DNA of 39,351 bases from Bacteroidota bacterium (GTDB lineage Bacteria; Bacteroidota; Bacteroidia; Bacteroidales; Prolixibacteraceae), in contig JAUYMU010000032.1 in NCBI GenBank assembly GCA_030698405.1, positions 1 through 39,351 of the forward strand, given 5' to 3'. Every line of letters starts with the position of its first letter. Within the stretch, counting starts at the first letter, position 1. The notes under the pieces are model-generated. The model worked only from the letters and a program-made list of their open reading frames with translations. It did not search any database and had not been told where the DNA came from. Positions 7,691 to 39,227 of the stretch are shown in pieces. Position numbers and translations under genes: made by a program.

Positions 7691-7756
7691 GAACTTTTCC
7701 AATCTACAAAGAACTTTTCCAAAGTTTTATATAGTTTATAAAACTTTGGAAAAGTT
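7691..7756. repeat. REP-like palindromic element A
   Basis: A perfect 20-bp inverted repeat (7712-7731 with 7737-7756) has the core arm AACTTTTCCAAAGTT and a 5-nt loop TAGTT. A partial extra arm, GAACTTTTCCAA, precedes it at 7691-7702. The same arm occurs at 8751 and inside the transposase-like gene at 37372-37590. It is a probable target or product of that REP-associated transposase. Confidence 0.8.
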
Positions 7757-7850
7757 AATCGATTATTACTTCCATTTCACCTTGTGAACTTTACTTAAGG
7801 AAATGAGTTATTGTTCTAAGTTTAAACTAAAGAACCAAATCATTTCCATC

Positions 7851-8741
7851 ATGAAAAAAATTACAACAAGGTTTGCCTTTATAACAATCTGTCTGATTGG
7901 CTCTTCGCTCTTCGCCTATACTCAAAACAGTCAGGACACCCTTAAAATCCAGATTGAAACTGTTGACGGGAATACGTATATCGGAACCATCCTTGAACAG
8001 ACATCCGAAACAATCAGGATAAAAACTGATAAACTTGGCGAAATAAATATCCCCCGAGCCGAAGTGAAAAGAATTAATCAACTCTCAACAATCATTGTTA
8101 AAGACGGAACTTACTGGCTCGAAAACCCACAATCAACACGATACTTCTGGGCGCCAAACGGTTACAGTCTAAAAAAAGGAGAAGGTTATTACCAGAATGT
8201 CTGGATCATGTTTAATCAGGCAGTTTACGGATTTACAGACCATTTTTCGGGAGGTGTCGGCGTAGTGCCTATGTTTCTTTTTGCAGGTGCATCAACCCCG
8301 GCATGGATTACTGCCAAGTTCTCGGTTCCTGTAGTGAAAGATAAAATCAATCTGGGTGTTGGCGCCCTGGCAGGTACTGTTATTGGAGAAGAAAATACCG
8401 GGTTTGGAATTATTTACGGAATTTCCACTTTCGGAACAAGAGACAAAAACCTCAACATTGGACTTGGTTGGGGATATGCCGGAGGAGAAATAGCGAGTAA
8501 CCCTACAGTCAGTATTGGCGGAATGATCAGAACAGGGGCAAAAGGTTATCTCATTACTGAAAATTATTTCATAGGAACACCGGAAAATTTCATCGTTCTG
8601 ATGTCAGTAGGCGGCAGAAGGATTATTCAAAAAGCCGGAATCGATTTCGGATTATGGATCCCGCTTGGAGCGGACATTGGCAGTTTTATAGCCATCCCCT
8701 GGTTGGGATTTACCATTCCGTTCGGACAGAAATTGAAGTAA
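7851..8741 (+). CDS. Exported protein with an N-terminal beta-rich domain, function unknown
   Basis: From the ATG at 7851 the product is 296 residues, beginning with a signal peptide (MKKITTRFAFITICLIGSSLFA). The frame extends up to 7803, but the 7851 start gives the cleaner signal peptide. The first mature segment (about residues 28-75, IETVDGNTYIGTILEQTSE...) resembles small SH3/LSm-like beta domains. The rest is rich in Gly and aromatic residues with alternating hydrophobic strands (GYSLKKGEGYYQNVW, NIGLGWGYAGGE, GSFIAIPWLGFTIPFG), which suggests an outer-membrane beta barrel. It is flanked on both sides by REP-like palindromes and appears monocistronic. I do not recognise a named family. 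Confidence 0.8.
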   Translation: MKKITTRFAFITICLIGSSLFAYTQNSQDTLKIQIETVDGNTYIGTILEQTSETIRIKTDKLGEINIPRAEVKRINQLSTIIVKDGTYWLENPQSTRYFWAPNGYSLKKGEGYYQNVWIMFNQAVYGFTDHFSGGVGVVPMFLFAGASTPAWITAKFSVPVVKDKINLGVGALAGTVIGEENTGFGIIYGISTFGTRDKNLNIGLGWGYAGGEIASNPTVSIGGMIRTGAKGYLITENYFIGTPENFIVLMSVGGRRIIQKAGIDFGLWIPLGADIGSFIAIPWLGFTIPFGQKLK

Positions 8742-8750
8742 AATATAAAG

Positions 8751-8828
8751 AACTTTTCCAAAGTTTTATAAACTCGATTGAAGAACTTTCCCAAAGTTTT
8801 ATACAGTTTATAAAACTTTGGGAAAGTT
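8751..8828. repeat. REP-like palindromic element B
   Basis: A first arm (8751-8770) is identical over 20 nt to the left arm of element A. It is followed by a perfect 20-bp inverted repeat, 8784-8803 with 8809-8828, with loop CAGTT. In this hairpin TTTTCC has become TTTCCC and the opposite arm has changed to GGGAAA, so pairing is kept. The element sits between the exported-protein gene and the 3' end of odhB, which converge on it. Confidence 0.8.
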
Positions 8829-30583: not shown

Positions 30584-31240
30584 ATGAAAGTTCATAAAGC
30601 CGGTATCGGTACAATTAATTATGCAACTGCCGCACTGGCAGTACTCATCGTATTATCATGGTTTTTTATTACTGAAACAGTCATTAAAGTGGCCGTTTTA
30701 TCTGTTGCAGCTGTGCTCTATTTCATAGTCATTCAATTCTTCAGATATCCTCAACGCACAGTAATTAAAAATGAAAAGTTGATATTATCGCCTGCCGACG
30801 GGAAAGTTTGCGATATCAAAGAGTTTGTTGAGAATGAGTACCTGAAAAGCAAATGTCTTCAGATATCTATTTTCATGTCGCCAACCAATGTACACATCAA
30901 TTGGGTTCCGGTGCCGGGAATCGTAACTTATATGAAACACAAGGACGGTGAGTTTTATGCTGCTTTCAAGGATAAATCGGCAGAAGAAAACGAACGGATG
31001 ACCACCGCCATAAAGATGAAAGATGGCCAGGAAATCGTGATGCGCCAGATCGCCGGTGCTATGGCCCGCAGGATTATCAATTACGTTACTGTTGGCGACG
31101 AGGTCGATCAGGCTACCGAAGTTGGATTTATTCGCTTTGGTTCGCGTGTCGATCTGTTTCTGCCACTCAATACAAAACTAAATATCAAATTGGGACAGAA
31201 AGTGACCGGTTCTCAAACCATCATTGGAGAACTTCAGTAA
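30584..31240 (+). CDS. psd: Phosphatidylserine decarboxylase proenzyme
   Basis: The 218-residue short-form enzyme makes phosphatidylethanolamine from phosphatidylserine. It has two N-terminal membrane segments, the conserved SPADGKVCDIKEF and IFMSPTNVHINWVP blocks, and the self-cleavage site RFGSRVDLFLP, where Ser187 becomes the pyruvoyl group. Its stop overlaps the pssA ATG (TAATG), pairing the two enzymes. Confidence 0.96.
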   Translation: MKVHKAGIGTINYATAALAVLIVLSWFFITETVIKVAVLSVAAVLYFIVIQFFRYPQRTVIKNEKLILSPADGKVCDIKEFVENEYLKSKCLQISIFMSPTNVHINWVPVPGIVTYMKHKDGEFYAAFKDKSAEENERMTTAIKMKDGQEIVMRQIAGAMARRIINYVTVGDEVDQATEVGFIRFGSRVDLFLPLNTKLNIKLGQKVTGSQTIIGELQ

Positions 31241-31992
31241 TGAGCCGTATCAGCAACATGTTTTTTTGGATTCCAAATGCCATCACCGCCTTAAACCTTG
31301 TGAGCGGCAGTTTAGCCGTATTTTTTGCCGTTGACGGACAATTGGGCTGGGCTTCGGTATTTATACTTGTCGCCGCAGTTTTCGATTTCCTCGACGGATT
31401 TGCTGCCCGACTTTTAAAAGCTTATTCATCCATTGGCAAAGAACTTGACTCGCTGGCCGATATGGTTTCTTTTGGCCTTGCTCCGGCAGCAATTGTCTTC
31501 ACCATGCTCGAATATACTTTGTTTGGCATCAATCAACCCATTCAGGATATAGATGCAAACTGGAGCCAGTGGATAGTACTTTTCACCAGTTTAATAATTC
31601 CGGTAGCCGGCGCTTTTCGCCTCGCAAAATTCAATACCGACGACCGGCAAAGTGAACAGTTTCTGGGAATGCCCATTCCGGCCAATGCCATCTTTTTTGC
31701 CTCACTCGGATTAATTCTCGAATTGGGAACCAACCTGTCAGTTCAGTCCGTAATTTTAAATAAATACGTGATACTGGCAGCCGTATTTGGCTGTTCATTC
31801 CTGATGGTTTCCGAACTACCGATGTTCTCCATGAAATTTAAAAACCTGCACCTGAAGGAAAATGCCATCCGCTTCCTTTTCCTCGGGTCAACTGTTCTGA
31901 TGATCATCTTCCTTCAGGTTTATGCCCTTCCGCTAATCATTATCTGGTATGTATTGCTTTCGGCGATAACTTATTTGGCTGGAGTAAAATAA
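31240..31992 (+). CDS. pssA: CDP-diacylglycerol--serine O-phosphatidyltransferase
   Basis: The 250-residue membrane enzyme makes phosphatidylserine from CDP-diacylglycerol and serine. The CDP-alcohol phosphotransferase motif DGFAAR...SSIGKELDSLAD (about 49-71) contains all four acidic residues. About seven membrane segments follow. With cdsA and psd it completes the route to phosphatidylethanolamine. It is the last gene of the run. Confidence 0.95.
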   Translation: MSRISNMFFWIPNAITALNLVSGSLAVFFAVDGQLGWASVFILVAAVFDFLDGFAARLLKAYSSIGKELDSLADMVSFGLAPAAIVFTMLEYTLFGINQPIQDIDANWSQWIVLFTSLIIPVAGAFRLAKFNTDDRQSEQFLGMPIPANAIFFASLGLILELGTNLSVQSVILNKYVILAAVFGCSFLMVSELPMFSMKFKNLHLKENAIRFLFLGSTVLMIIFLQVYALPLIIIWYVLLSAITYLAGVK

Positions 31993-32529: not shown

Positions 32530-35500
32530 ATGAAAAAAATTTTAGGACTGGATTTAGGAACCAATAGTATTGGATGGGCATTGATAAATGAAGATGGAGG
32601 AAGAAAAGAGATTCTTGGAATTGGAACCAGAATAATTCCGATGAGCCAGGATATTCTGGGGAAGTTTGATAGTGGTAACTCCATATCTCAAACTGCCGAA
32701 AGAACCGGATTTAGAGGAATACGCAGAATAAGAGAAAGATATTTATTGCGGCGTGAACGTCTGCACAGAATACTAAACAAATTGGGATTTTTACCTGAAC
32801 ATTTCGCGAAGGCCATTGATTTTGAAGACCGGCTTGGTCAGTTTAAGCCAGACAATGAACCAAAATTAGTCTGGGAAGAAGCCAAAACTGGTGTTTTCGA
32901 ATTCATCTTTAAATCTTCTTTCAATGAAATGGTTGAAGAATTTAAAGTTACTCAACCTGAACTTTTCTCCATAAAAGAAAATGGAGAAGAGAGACAAATA
33001 CCTTACGACTGGACAATTTATTATCTCCGTAAAAAAGCATTGCAAGCCAAAATTGAAAAAGAAGAATTGGCCTGGTTGTTACTTAACTTTAATCAAAAGA
33101 GAGGTTATTATCAGTTACGAGGAGAGGAAGAGGAAGAAAATCCCAATAAATTGGTTGAATTTCATGCACTGAAAGTAGTTGATGTTACTTCCGATGAACC
33201 GCAAAAAGGTAAAATTGACATCTGGTATAGTGTGATTCTGGAAAATAGTTGGATTTACAGACGTTCAAGTAAAACGCCCTTGTTCGATTGGAAAGATAAA
33301 ATCAAGGAATTTATTGTTACAACCGATTTAAATGATGATGGTACTGTAAAAACGGACAAAGAAGGAGCTGAAAAACGTTCGTTTCGCGCACCATCTGAAG
33401 ATGATTGGACATTACTGAAAAAGAAAACAGAGTCAGATATAGTTAAAAGCAACAAAACTGTTGGTTGCTACATCTATGAAACATTGCTCGAAAATCCGGC
33501 ACAAAAAATCAATGGGAAATTGGTTCGAACCATCGAACGAAAATTTTACAAACAAGAGCTACAAACCATCTTAGAAAAACAAAAATTGTATCATCCTGAA
33601 TTACAAAACAAAGAGCTATACAATGTGTGTCTCGAAGAACTGTATCAGAACAATGAAGCACACCGCAAAACACTCCAAAATGCCAATTATACCAAACTAT
33701 TTATTGATGGATATTATCTTTTACCAACGTCCACTAAAAAGTAAAAAATCGTTGATTAGCAACTGCCCTTATGAATTTAGGGCATTTAAAAATGAAGCTG
33801 GAGAATTAAAAAAAGAATCAATTAAGTGCATTTCCAAATCGCACCCTCTGTTTCAGGAGTTCCGGTTGTGGCAGTTTGTGCAAAATCTAAAGATTTATGA
33901 AAGAGAACGAGATACAAATGGGAAGCTCCAAACTGATGTAGATGTTACTAATGATTTTTTGAAAACAGAAGATGATTATGTGGCTCTGTTTGAGTGGCTG
34001 AACAACCGCAAGGAAATAAAACAAGATACTTTGCTTTCATCGTATTTCAAGATAAAAAAGCCAAAAGGTTCCACCAATTTGCCTTTTCGATGGAACTATG
34101 TTGAAGACAAAGAATATCCTTCAAATGAAACACATTCTCAAATCAAGAATCGACTTTCTAAGTTGAGTGAAGTCCCTGAAAATTTTCTTGATAACGAAAA
34201 AGAATTGATGTTATGGCATATCCTTTACTCAGTTGAAGATAAAGCAGAACTTGAGAAAGCATTGAAATCATTCTCGGACAAACACCATTTGGGTACTGAT
34301 TTCATGGAAGTTTTTAAAAAATTTCCACCTTTCAAAAAAGAATATGGTTCATATTCAGCCAAGGCGATCAAAAAGCTATTGCCATTGATGCGAATGGGGA
34401 AATATTGGGATGAAAGCGAGATTCATGAGCAGACAAAACAAAGAATTGATAAAATAATCGACGGTGAATATGATGAGACTATTCGAAACAGAGTTAGGGA
34501 TAAAACAATAAACCTTGCTGACATAAAATTTTTCAGAAGCTTACCGCTTTGGCTTGCATGCTATGTTGTATATGACCGTCATTCAGAGGCCAACGACTTA
34601 AAAAAATGGAAAACCCCGCAGGATGTTGAAGATTATTTGAGAAATGAATTTAAACAGCACTCATTGCGTAATCCAATCGTTGAGCAGGTAATCACAGAAA
34701 CGTTAAGGGTTGTAAAAGATATTTGGAGAAATTATGGAGAAAAAGACGAAAAAGGAGAATTTCATCAACTATTTGATGAAATTCATATTGAATTGGGTCG
34801 TGAGATGAAAAATCCAGCTGATAAACGGAAAAAGATGACGGAACAGGTAACTGAAAACGAAAATACAAATCTCCGCATCAAGGCTCTTTTGGTCGAACTG
34901 ATGAATTACAGCGATGTAGAAAATGTTAGACCATATTCGCCCAGTCAGCAGGAAATTTTAAAGATATATGAAGAAGGCGTATTGAATTCAAGCGTAGAAG
35001 TTCCTGATGATATCGTCAAAATCGTAAAATCCTGTCAGCCAACCAAATCAGAACTTATTCGATACAAGTGCTGGCTGGAACAAGGATACCGCTCACCATA
35101 CACAGGAGAAATGATTCCGCTTACCAAACTCTTTACTTCGGCTTATGAGATTGAGCATATCATTCCACAATCAAGATATTTCGACGATTCTTTAAGCAAT
35201 AAAGTAATCTGCGAATCAGAAGTAAACAAAGAAAAAGACAATGCGCTCGGCTATGAGTTTATAAAAAAGAATGAAGGTAGAATCATTGAACTAAGCTATG
35301 CAAAAAAGGTAAAAGTATTCTCTATTAATGAGTACGAAGAATTTGTAAAACGACAGTATGGGAAGAATCGCAGCAAAATGAAAAAACTTTTGATGGAAGA
35401 CATTCCTGATGCTTTTATTGAAAGACAACTCAACGACAGCCGATACATTAGCAAAGTAGTAAAGAGTCTATTGTCAAATATTGTGCGTGAAGATGGCGAA

Positions 35501-37138
35501 CAAGAAGCCACTTCAAAAAATGTGATTTCATGTTCCGGTGGTGTTACCTCTATTTTAAAACACGATTGGGGATTAAACGATGTTTGGAACAACATTGTTT
35601 ATCCACGTTTTGAGCGAATGAACGAGAAAACGAACAGCAATGGTTTTGGACATTGGACCAGCAAAGAAGGCAAACGCGTATTTCAAACAGAAATGCCACT
35701 TGAACTACAAAAGGGGTTTGTCAAAAAGCGGATCGATCATCGCCATCATGCAATGGATGCATTGGTAATTGCCTGCGCTACCCGAAACCACATCAACTAC
35801 TTGAATAACGAACATGCCCGGCAAAAAGACGACAAAATGCGCATTGACCTGAGGAACAAGTTGCGTCGATTAGAAGATATTGTTGTTGACCGATACGAAA
35901 ACGGACAGAAAGTTCGCAAAAACATGAAAGTTGCTAAGGAATTCCATAAACCGTGGGATACTTTTACCCAGGATGCACATACCGCACTGGAAAATATTGT
36001 GGTGAGTTTTAAGCAAAACCTGAGGGTAATAAACAAAAGTATGAACAACTACCAACATTTTGTGGACGGGAAGAAAGTTATTGAAAAACAAATAAAAGGA
36101 GACAATTGGGCAATACGAAAACCTATGCATAAAGATACCGTAGCTGGGCAAGTTAATTTGCGGTTTAAGAAAGCGGCTACACTTTCAGTCGCGATCGATC
36201 AATGGGAAATGTTGGTTGATAAAAACCTAAAAACGAAAATTAAACATTTGATTAATGAAGGCTTAGATAAAAAAAAGATACGAAAATTCTTCGCCGACTG
36301 TGAAAATAAATGGATGGGAAAAGATATATCAAAGCCCGAACTTTACTATTTCAGCAATGAAAAAGATGAATTAGTAGCCTCACGGGTAAGTTTAAATGAT
36401 TCTTTTAATTCTAAAAAAATCGAAAGCATTACAGATACAGGTATTCAAAAAATATTGAATAATCACTTAGCCAATTACGATGAAGAAAAGGATGGAAAAA
36501 CGATTGAACATCCGGAATTGGCCTTTTCTCCCGAAAGAATTGAGGAAATGAATAAAAACATTTTCACTCTCAATGACGGCAAATACCACCAACCCATATG
36601 TAAAGTGCGCACTTATGAACCCAAAGGGAATAAATTCAATGTTGGAAGCACTGGAAATAAAAAAGATAAATATGTGGAAGCTGCCAAGGGAACGAATTTA
36701 TTTTTTGCAATTTATCAAACAGAGGAAGGTAAACGCACATTCGAAACAATACTTTTAAATATTGTAATAGAGCTTCAAAAACAAGGCCTACCACCTGTTC
36801 CTAGAACTAATGAAAATGGAGACAAACTACTTTTCTGGCTTTCTCCAAACGATTTAGTGTATTTACCTATTCAAGATGAAAAATTAGATATTATTTCTGG
36901 GAAAGGTGTTGCAAAAGAGCGAATTTTCAAAATAATTAGTTTTACAGGTAATAGACTGTATGCGATTCCCTACTATATCGCAAGCGTGATTGTTGATAAA
37001 ATGGAATACTCACAATTAAACAAAGTTGAATTTACCGACCAAAAGGAATCGATTAAGGAAATATGTACTCAGATAAGAGTTGATAGGCTTGGAAACATTG
37101 TCGAAATATTTAGTGAAAATTATAACAAAATCAACTAA
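32530..37138 (+). pseudogene. cas9: Cas9, type II-C, interrupted by one frameshift
   Basis: The reading frame from 32530 ends early at 33744. The frame one base later continues the protein from 33710 to the stop at 37138. Dropping one G of the GG pair at 33709-33710 restores TKLFID-DIIFYQRPLKSKK and a product of about 1535 residues, normal for Bacteroidota II-C Cas9. Catalytic sites are all kept: RuvC-I LGLDLGTNSIG (D8), an Arg-rich bridge helix (about 61-85), RuvC-II IHIELGREM (E754), HNH YEIEHIIPQSRYFDD (H876) and RuvC-III HRHHAMDA (H1073, D1076). No other stop or shift is seen in the remaining 1142 codons. The damage is therefore recent, or it is a sequencing error. The stop overlaps the next ATG (TAATG). 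Confidence 0.93.
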
Positions 37139-37984
37139 TGTATTCTCTTGTACCCGATACCAGCTACCATATTTTCAACCATGCCAATGGGTTCGAGAAT
37201 GTGTTCAGGAAAGAAGATAATTTCTATTTCTTTCTGGAAAAGTATCGGTTGTACATTTCCCCCATCGCCGAAACCTACGCGTATTGCCTGATGCCGAACC
37301 ATTTTCACCTGGTGGTGCGGATTCGTAAGCGCGTAGTGATTGAGGAGCTGATTCGAAATAAAACGAAAACTAACTTTTCCAAAGTTTCTAACCTTGATAA
37401 GAGCGTTAGTGGACCTCTAAATGAACACGATATAACAAAGTCTGTAAACTTTGGAAAAGTTGAACGCGTTAGTGGACCTCTAAATGAATACGATAAAAAT
37501 AACTTTTCCAAAGTTTCTAACCTTGAAAAAAGCGTTAGTATACTTCAAAATGAATTAGCCAAAACAAAACCTATAAACTTTGGAAAAGTTGAAGGAAAAG
37601 TTATCAGCGATAGCGATATCGAGAAATTTTTATCGAAACAATTCGCGAACCTGTTTAGCTGTTATACGCAGTCGTTCAACAAGGTATATGATCGAATGGG
37701 ATCGTTGTTTATCAAGAATTTCAAACGCGAACCAATACACGATAAAACCCATTTTCTGAATGTGATTGTTTATACCCACCGCAACCCTGTTCATCATGGA
37801 TTTTGCTCAAATTATGAAGATTGGGATTATAGTTCGTACAACGAAATTATAAACGGAATTTGCGACCAAATAGAACTTGAAAAACTACTTAAAATGACTA
37901 ACGGAATTGAATCATTCAAAGAAATGCACCGAAATGCGCTCGAAAATTTCACTCCGATAAACGAGCTTGAAATACCACCTCACG

Positions 37985-37992
<8 letters not shown>
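37138..37992 (+). CDS. REP-associated Y1 (HUH) transposase-like protein inside the cas operon
   Basis: The 284-residue protein has the Y1 transposase pattern of REP-associated (RAYT) proteins. YHIFNHANG near the start is followed by the HUH motif in YCLMPNHFHLVV (H55, H57) and by a late YTHRNPVHHGF block (Y212 the likely catalytic tyrosine) with WDYSSYNEI. Between them, residues about 79-152 are two tandem 43-residue units encoded by DNA palindromes (NFSKVSNL then NFGKVE), absent from a typical compact family member. Its ATG overlaps the cas9 stop and its end overlaps the cas1 start by 8 nt, so it is built into the cas operon. Whether it serves CRISPR or REP movement is unknown. Confidence 0.88.
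37372..37461. repeat. In-frame palindromic REP-like unit 1 in the transposase-like gene
   Basis: AACTTTTCCAAAGTT (37372-37386) and its exact reverse complement AACTTTGGAAAAGTT (37447-37461) bracket a 90-nt unit. Both arms are translated, as NFSKV and NFGKV. The arms equal the core of REP-like elements A and B at 7.7 and 8.8 kb. Confidence 0.85.
37501..37590. repeat. In-frame palindromic REP-like unit 2 in the transposase-like gene
   Basis: Second unit, again exactly 90 nt, with identical 15-nt arms at 37501-37515 and 37576-37590. The two units are 129 nt apart (43 codons). Between and within them a shorter repeat, GCGTTAGTGGACCTCTAAAT, occurs twice. Reading frame is kept throughout. Confidence 0.85.

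Positions 37993-39227
<1,235 letters not shown>

Follow-up and report, generated by a model that had tools for sequence, protein, structure and literature searches.

The stretch of DNA analysed here, called the window, is the entire contig JAUYMU010000032.1 (39,351 bases) of the Bacteroidota bacterium assembly GCA_030698405.1 (Prolixibacteraceae). It carries a type II-C operon of a CRISPR (clustered regularly interspaced short palindromic repeats)-Cas system in which an intact open reading frame (ORF) of 284 amino acids, listed at 37138-37992 on the + strand, lies between cas9 and cas1. The gene encodes a REP (repetitive extragenic palindrome)-associated tyrosine transposase (RAYT, or TnpA-REP). 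RAYT genes were found at the same junction in many relatives, and the best explanation is that the RAYT is a resident gene of the cas operon.

The genes around the RAYT were identified as Cas9, Cas1 and Cas2 with Pfam and NCBIfam, so that cas9, a type II cas1 and cas2 are all present, cas9 in frameshifted form (Table 1). By direct reading, the RAYT start codon (37138-37140) has one base in common with the cas9 stop codon TAA (37136-37138; TAATG), and its own TAA (37990-37992) lies within cas1, whose ATG is at 37985, giving an overlap of 8 nt. An earlier note on this DNA had described a Y1/HUH transposase-like gene with these two junctions, and the coordinates agree with it. Co-expression with cas9 and cas1 is predicted from the overlaps and the shared orientation. 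The cas9 frameshift (window 33620-33745) leaves two overlapping ORFs in different frames (32530-33744 and 33623-37138), whereas cas9 of locus L063 is a single frame of 1473 aa; the window copy may therefore be broken or misassembled, by real loss or by an assembly error. The contig ends 124 nt past cas2 and accordingly holds no CRISPR array. An array lies 3' of cas2 in the near relative L061, and repeat arrays lie beside many other relatives. All cas4 matches in the genome were on contigs other than that of the II-C operon.

At an E value of 0.001 the only NCBIfam match of the RAYT was NF047646 (E 2.2e-13), which covers residues 175-232 only and scores 50.3 bits against a cut-off of 80 bits; the cas-linked RAYTs of L218 and L351 score 48 and 53 bits with the same model. 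No Pfam family and no NF033573 match was found at E 0.001, and the protein was therefore not assigned to IS200/IS605. Residues N54, H55, H57, Y176, G188, Y212, N216 and P217 were invariant in a family alignment of 40 rows, all of which thus have the HUH motif and a single catalytic tyrosine in Y..NP. The roles of NHFH and Tyr 212 are presumed to be those of the same motifs in known HUH enzymes. The predicted fold has a mean pLDDT (predicted local distance difference test) of 81, with residues 94-139 below 50, and its sole match in the PDB with E < 0.001 was 4er8 (E 2e-6), a REP transposase bound to a REP hairpin. The Y1/HUH transposase-like gene of the earlier note is thus a RAYT by its invariant motifs, its fold and its cognate REPs.

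These REPs lie in part within the gene. A linker insert of about 76 codons (codons 77-152), on which the earlier note is silent, contains two 99-nt repeats, 84% alike, and four half-sites of AACTTTTCCAAAGTT in alternating orientation. The general half-site form, AACTTTNNCAAAGTT, matched the genome at 20 places, four of them within the RAYT gene, against one for a reversed control pattern; with one mismatch allowed it matched the window 18 times, against 0.31 expected. Extragenic matches form hairpin pairs at 7712-7756 and 8784-8828 of the window contig. Cognate REP palindromes are therefore present in the genome, where other RAYTs could partner the extragenic copies. Linker palindromes (score at least 12) between the HUH and Tyr motifs were found in 49 of 101 RAYT genes, the window included, and in 38 of 50 genes of a second set, and their sequences differ from member to member. 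In-frame REPs in this position, as in the window RAYT, are the criterion of TnpA-REP subclass 2.4, for which REPs inside the gene are, by the available text, already known (PMC6006769). A near relative (L031:961-2115; protein of 385 aa) has still more half-sites in its linker, which suggests multiplication of REPs within the gene. Derivation of the REP palindrome from the CRISPR repeat was considered and rejected, the two showing no resemblance by eye; a role in handling repeat hairpins, suggested in the earlier note, accordingly finds no support.

RAYTs were surveyed starting from the RAYT itself (80 loci kept from a genome-contig scan and 29 loci of near relatives). They were found in cas9-cas1-cas2 loci of many Bacteroidota, mostly at the cas9-cas1 junction and in L069, L098 and L118 between cas1 and cas2. 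Leaving the window aside, cas1 and the RAYT shared a strand in all 63 II-C loci, and the RAYT was upstream of cas1 in 61 of them; nine of these 61 overlap cas1 and 36 lie within 60 nt of it. Integration into the operon, as proposed for the window, is thus general. Gaps of at most 30 nt on both sides were seen in 4 of 22 RAYTs labelled cas-linked (the relic L036 included) and in none of 71 labelled free (a few of which were later found near cas genes).

Further counts were begun from type II Cas1 (TIGR03639), to avoid selection on the RAYT. Among 140 Prolixibacteraceae genomes, 45 had type II Cas1 (47 loci). In 35 of the 47 loci cas1 was immediately preceded by a RAYT of the same orientation, with several RAYT subfamilies represented, and RAYT-bearing loci occurred in 12 of the 16 genera that have type II. 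The distance to cas1 in these 35 loci ranged from -62 to 316 nt. The overlap of the window was one case among few (six of these 35, and the nine noted above), and the coupled order expected from the window holds as an order but not generally as an overlap. In the order sample, type II Cas1 was found in 145 of 393 genomes. Outside the 30 top-scoring loci, a RAYT preceded cas1 in 11 of 59; in seven of these a cas9 could be recognised on the far side of the RAYT. These 59 loci are approximately every other remaining row; a 60th (L368, genome G040), with its RAYT upstream of cas9, was excluded as having been picked for a known RAYT. In the phylum sample, type II Cas1 was found in 61 of 392 genomes (62 loci), and an in-line RAYT within the operon in four (the window, L154, L159 and L169), so that the trait is patchy outside the family. 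In four more loci of this sample (L157, L192, L195 and L196), all from a single genus, a different and more distant RAYT stands immediately behind cas2 in convergent orientation. A rough estimate from 96 RAYT places in 60 other genomes, an assumed number of about 3,500 genes in each, and 122 inner junctions gives 0.06 RAYTs expected inside operons by chance, against three seen. The gene order is thus not unique to this genome, a prospect that the earlier note had raised against its own proposal, and a unique or chance insertion was rejected on its recurrence in the phylum, order and family samples. Two tandem RAYT ORFs, often one of them shortened, were seen upstream of cas1 in L154, L071, L238 and L243, by repeated entry or duplication.

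Table 1. Features of the window (positions on the contig).
Feature	Position	Strand	Basis or remark
RAYT / TnpA-REP gene (Y1 HUH single-stranded DNA nuclease)	37138..37992	+	NHFH at residues 54-57, Tyr 212 in YTHRNP; NF047646, alignment, fold
In-frame linker insert with REP palindromes, poorly predicted in the model	37366..37593	+	
REP half-sites inside the linker	37372-37387, 37446-37461, 37501-37516, 37575-37590		
cas9, first part, frame broken	32530..33744	+	TIGR01865
cas9, second part, other frame, stop overlapping the RAYT start codon	33623..37138	+	ORF and profile match
cas1 (type II), start overlapping the RAYT stop by 8 nt	37985..38887	+	TIGR03639, E 1.2e-88
cas2	38952..39227	+	TIGR01573; start set from relatives, ORF as listed from 38832
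Extragenic REP pair (hairpin), half-site AACTTTTCCAAAGTT	7712..7756	not assigned	
REP half-site of the same family and REP pair	8751..8828	not assigned	

The draft assembly of the window genome comprises 138 contigs, and its cas9 is frameshifted, as might be expected if the arrangement were an artefact of assembly or binning, or a recent chance insertion. This explanation is refuted, and its probability is negligible: a RAYT lies upstream of cas1 in five single-contig genomes (G462, G463, G467, G494 and G496) and in the isolates Splendidivirga corallicola, Roseivirga spongicola and Reichenbachiella agariperforans (the latter with a short cas1 ORF).

A RAYT tree was built from 151 rows (75 labelled free, 65 II-C and 11 beside cas6). 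The tree excludes RAYT rows shorter than 140 aa, near-identical rows and the relic L036, which is also absent from the 101-gene palindrome count; L044, L053, L054 and L057 had their labels corrected from free, L042 and L106 still stand as free although they too have cas neighbours, and one gene is entered twice (L049 and L377). The II-C label required 19 changes on the tree, at least 8 of them on well supported branches, against 49.1 with shuffled labels (none of 500 shuffles as low). The window clade contains 11 II-C and 3 free rows, one clade of 15 rows is entirely II-C, and a clade of 20 rows, 17 of them II-C, spans 11 families of the order. This pattern indicates that RAYTs entered the operon several times, stayed there for long and were lost in some cases. 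A single ancestral insertion was rejected on the same changes, and the comparison with free-standing RAYTs proposed in the earlier note gave fewer label changes than shuffling, together with several entries.

Within the window clade, RAYT distances track those of cas1 (rho 0.56, Mantel p 0.009, 10 loci) and do not track those of cas9 (rho 0.20, p 0.16, 8 loci). Between the window and L032, identity is 32% for cas9 (a C-terminal piece in L032), 88% for cas1 and 81% for the RAYT. From these distances, cas9 has evidently been exchanged in this clade while the RAYT and cas1 remained together. The ratio of nonsynonymous to synonymous substitution rates (dN/dS) was 0.044-0.131 in 11 pairs of II-C RAYTs, 0.071 in one cas6 pair, and 0.023-0.073 in 11 pairs of cas1, with several dS values near saturation and no value for one RAYT pair and one cas1 pair. 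The RAYTs of cas operons are thus under purifying selection. All that remains of the operon in the relic L036 (G009:C75) is a broken RAYT and, after it, 22 codons from the start of cas1; no cas9 or cas2 was found, and the upstream neighbour of the relic is, by eye, the same gene as window 31240-31992. In L073, L104 and L127 a free RAYT holds its position between two common neighbours, presumably a deoC-like and an aldehyde dehydrogenase-like gene, so that a RAYT location can be fixed outside cas loci as well.

RAYTs were also found in CRISPR operons of type I. In Prolixibacteraceae, a RAYT lay within the retrieved flanks of 9 of 30 cas6 loci and 6 of 30 cas4 loci, always on the cas strand; these counts, and those for hsdR given below, refer to the 30 best matches, one per genome, from totals of 56 for cas6, 48 for cas4 and over 150 for hsdR. 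The I-B operons L369, L370, L373 and L376 have the order cas6 - RAYT - cas8 - cas7 - cas5 - cas3; cas4 and cas1 come next in those that show them, and in L369 small ORFs separate the RAYT from cas6. The I-C operon of the window's own genome (L381) reads cas3 - cas5 - cas8 - cas7 - RAYT - cas4 - cas1, and a RAYT stands directly upstream of cas4 also in L385, L388, L393 and L413, and 9 nt upstream of a cas4 in another family (L106). The cas6 and cas4 genes were identified by models; cas8, cas7, cas5 and cas3 were provisionally named from gene order and sequence features. In L371, L372 and L377, cas6 adjoins the RAYT and no further cas operon was recognised in the retrieved stretch. A small gene lies between cas4 and cas1 of one I-B operon (L370:1275-1628), and is taken to belong to a four-helix-bundle family.

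A RAYT is present in every CRISPR operon found in the window's genome (II-C here, I-B on contig C24 and I-C on C43), and the three differ in subfamily, as judged by the tree for II-C and I-B and by motif for I-C. Two further RAYTs of this genome (C81 and C49) lie outside cas genes. In G188, G246 and G377, which were drawn regardless of RAYT, the RAYT of the cas operon was the only match at E 1e-5. It was likewise the only one at the threshold used in G494, G496, G521 and G532, which come from 14 genomes chosen for a known cas-linked RAYT.

The type I restriction gene hsdR was used as a control in the same genomes. No RAYT was found in the retrieved stretch of 30 hsdR loci, where flanks of 1.5 kb were taken from the matched domain and were partly filled by hsdR itself, so that less neighbouring DNA was covered than in the cas counts. 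The difference from the 35 of 47 type II Cas1 loci is large (Fisher p 8e-12, for loci that are not independent by descent). The idea that RAYTs favour defence operons in general was considered and has no support in these 30 loci. PADLOC models matched numbered 37 among 84 neighbours of free-labelled RAYTs and 61 among 73 more distant genes, a comparison that counts families and not genes; one neighbour matched Cas5a. In L037 (G046:C242) a RAYT lies, by eye, between hsdS-like and hsdR-like genes of a type I restriction system.

Other genes were found at the same junctions. Beyond the RAYT in the 35 family loci, cas9 was recognised in eight by search and in two more by NCBIfam (L234 and L241), and a gene of the PQLLE family in nine (L218, L220, L224, L225, L227, L235, L238, L240 and L242); the remainder had short stretches, contig ends or ORFs with no family match. 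The junction thus holds two extra genes, PQLLE and RAYT, in part of the family. L228 has PQLLE and no RAYT at the cas1 junction, and RhuM-Fic (L222) and DUF6261 (L206) stand there in place of a RAYT. Junction guests of the kinds IS200 TnpA, DUF559 (L179, by eye), GIY-YIG, RhuM-Fic and DUF6261 were seen in L164, L158, L179, L161, L174, L222 and L206.

The positions of cognate REPs bear on a further reading, also considered in the earlier note, in which a REP-type transposable element generated by the RAYT carries the cas locus as cargo. On the window contig, cognate REPs outside the RAYT occur only at 7712-8828, at least 28 kb away and not flanking the cas genes, and the II-C operon has no REP sites outside the RAYT itself. 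REP sites were mapped in ten operons, two of them of type I-B. They were found between cas1 and cas2 (L068, L235 and L242), directly 3' of cas2 (L071, L111, L113, L235 and L359), between cas9 and cas1 (L069), between cas7 and cas5 and after cas3 in the I-B operon of the window's genome (L369), and between cas3 and cas4 (L373). REPs and RAYT do co-occur in the genome, and some relatives have REPs after cas2, both of which speak for such an element. However, the window operon is not bracketed, other operons carry REPs not only after cas2 but also at inner junctions, and the exchange of cas9 with retention of RAYT and cas1 in the window clade is unlike the behaviour of one moving unit. A REP-bounded cas transposon was rejected on the REP positions in the window contig and the mapped operons, and the cargo explanation is very improbable.

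By analogy with known RAYTs, the protein would bind single-stranded REP hairpins, cut beside them through Tyr 212 and then rejoin the ends. It may have been retained since it serves the cas operon, and two kinds of service can be proposed. REP hairpins at gene junctions could set the relative amounts of the Cas proteins; such hairpins lie within the RAYT reading frame, and some of the relatives also have them at the cas1-cas2 or cas7-cas5 junction or after cas2. Alternatively, nicking and joining of single-stranded DNA could aid spacer acquisition. Recruitment to CRISPR is plausible. That the RAYT is a selected accessory of the operon, acting in expression control or in spacer acquisition, is slightly favoured over its being a passenger, at a little short of an even chance. 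The preference rests on the occupancy of the junction, the sense direction, purifying selection, the genomes whose only RAYT is in a cas operon, and the presence in three CRISPR types; it also rests on the tracking of cas1 in the window clade, the invariant catalytic residues, the REPs at other junctions and the relic of G009. A narrower form, in which REP-transposases were repeatedly recruited as accessories of CRISPR adaptation and would act as hairpin-reading enzymes that nick and join single-stranded DNA to prepare or place spacers, is considered unlikely. In this form the RAYT often has its place immediately before the adaptation genes, which means before cas1 in II-C operons and before cas4 in I-C operons and part of the I-B ones.

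Several results weigh against a service to the operon. No in-line RAYT was found in 58 of the 62 type II loci sampled across the phylum, none of the 30 top-scoring order loci had a RAYT, and 12 of the 47 family loci lack a RAYT ORF. The earlier note had named relatives without any trace of the gene as evidence against integration, and this is borne out by the 12 loci only in part: L214 retains a C-terminal RAYT trace beside cas1 (38 aa, 42%, E 3e-6), and L247 is cut off at a contig end. The usual RAYT site in I-B operons is the cas6-cas8 junction, usually not beside adaptation genes. The correlation of RAYT with cas1 is weak over all 23 loci compared (rho 0.16, p 0.08) and just rho 0.18 over 62 loci (p 0.0005). 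Free RAYT copies are under the same selection (dN/dS 0.047-0.141, 4 pairs). Scattered cognate REPs are not specific to cas loci: at distances above 300 nt from its gene, the RAYT's own half-site recurred in 8 of the 24 II-C loci examined and in 4 of 21 free ones (0-0.05 per locus with shuffled arms). A PQLLE gene immediately precedes the RAYT in nine family loci; PQLLE, RhuM-Fic and DUF6261 occur upstream of cas1, and IS200 TnpA, DUF559 and GIY-YIG between cas1 and cas2.

CRISPR operons are beneficial and often transferred. A RAYT with its REPs may be a semi-selfish pair that lands in gene junctions, and one that is harmless and reads in sense direction could spread with cas operons while being of no use to immunity; this is a serious contender, somewhat below an even chance. 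It fits the results just listed on selection, on RAYT-free type II loci and on the I-B site, and it gains on the accessory reading through the PQLLE genes at the same junction and the REPs scattered near free RAYTs. It also fits the several unrelated RAYT lineages at one site, the other families that use these junctions, the persistence of REPs across the genome in excess of the reversed control, and the members of the window clade with no cas genes in the visible DNA (L062, L067 and L033/L060, the latter two cut upstream). On the other side, hsdR, a defence operon that is likely transferred too, had no RAYT in its 30 loci, where the flanks are partly hsdR itself; several genomes have a cas RAYT only, at the thresholds used; and the occupancy of 35 of 47 loci by several subfamilies demands a strong site preference.

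As domesticated transposases, RAYTs pose the question of what use they are to the cell. With about three in four type II loci of one family carrying a RAYT upstream of cas1, in sense direction and under purifying selection, a concrete and testable setting for their usefulness is available, and these genomes offer natural comparisons in operons with and without RAYT, three CRISPR types within a single genome, and relics. Should the RAYT serve CRISPR, the smallest Cas9 systems would prove to include a novel accessory function; should it not, a mobile family would persist by residence in immune operons. If the adaptation role were true, domesticated transposases would have given CRISPR a second enzyme beside the transposase-derived Cas1. 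Recurrent RAYT entry into cas operons suggests an unexplored tie between REP-transposases and CRISPR.

RAYTs, intragenic REPs and II-C operons are each already known. No description of recurrent RAYT genes in cas operons was found among the open-access papers listed; subscription papers were mostly uncovered, and an earlier description is therefore possible. The window RAYT resembles TnpA-REP subclass 2.4 in its in-frame REPs, from which, and not from a tree with published 2.4 sequences, its placement there derives (Quentin et al., 2018; PMC6006769, available text); the term CRISPR does not occur in the main text of that paper. The best solved fold is that of the E. coli TnpA-REP (4er8, E 2e-6), whose hairpin cleavage and strand transfer provide the model for the mechanism, although identity is 10% and the window protein has a poorly predicted linker (residues 94-139 and 145-149) with REPs. 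According to the available text of PMC8266576, the TnpA-REP of E. coli and other TnpA-REP proteins cut and rejoin single-stranded REPs in vitro. An earlier proposal already linked REPs and CRISPR by suggesting a possible origin of CRISPRs from REPIN-like elements (Bertels and Rainey, 2011; PMC3116915); in its available part that proposal concerns repeats, and not RAYT genes within cas operons. A transposase gene in a II-C locus, as in the window, is described for Flavobacterium psychrophilum, where, in the text available, IS982 and IS256 insertion sequences lie between the tracrRNA and cas9 and in the array of one isolate, and are not RAYTs (PMC10309648). CasMu and other CRISPR-associated transposases likewise tie a transposase to cas genes, but are of the Mu-type DDE kind by the available text (PMC10910872), in which HUH, RAYT and REP-associated do not occur. 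With type II-C systems the window shares the cas9-cas1-cas2 order and the type II Cas1, and it adds to them a RAYT between cas9 and cas1.

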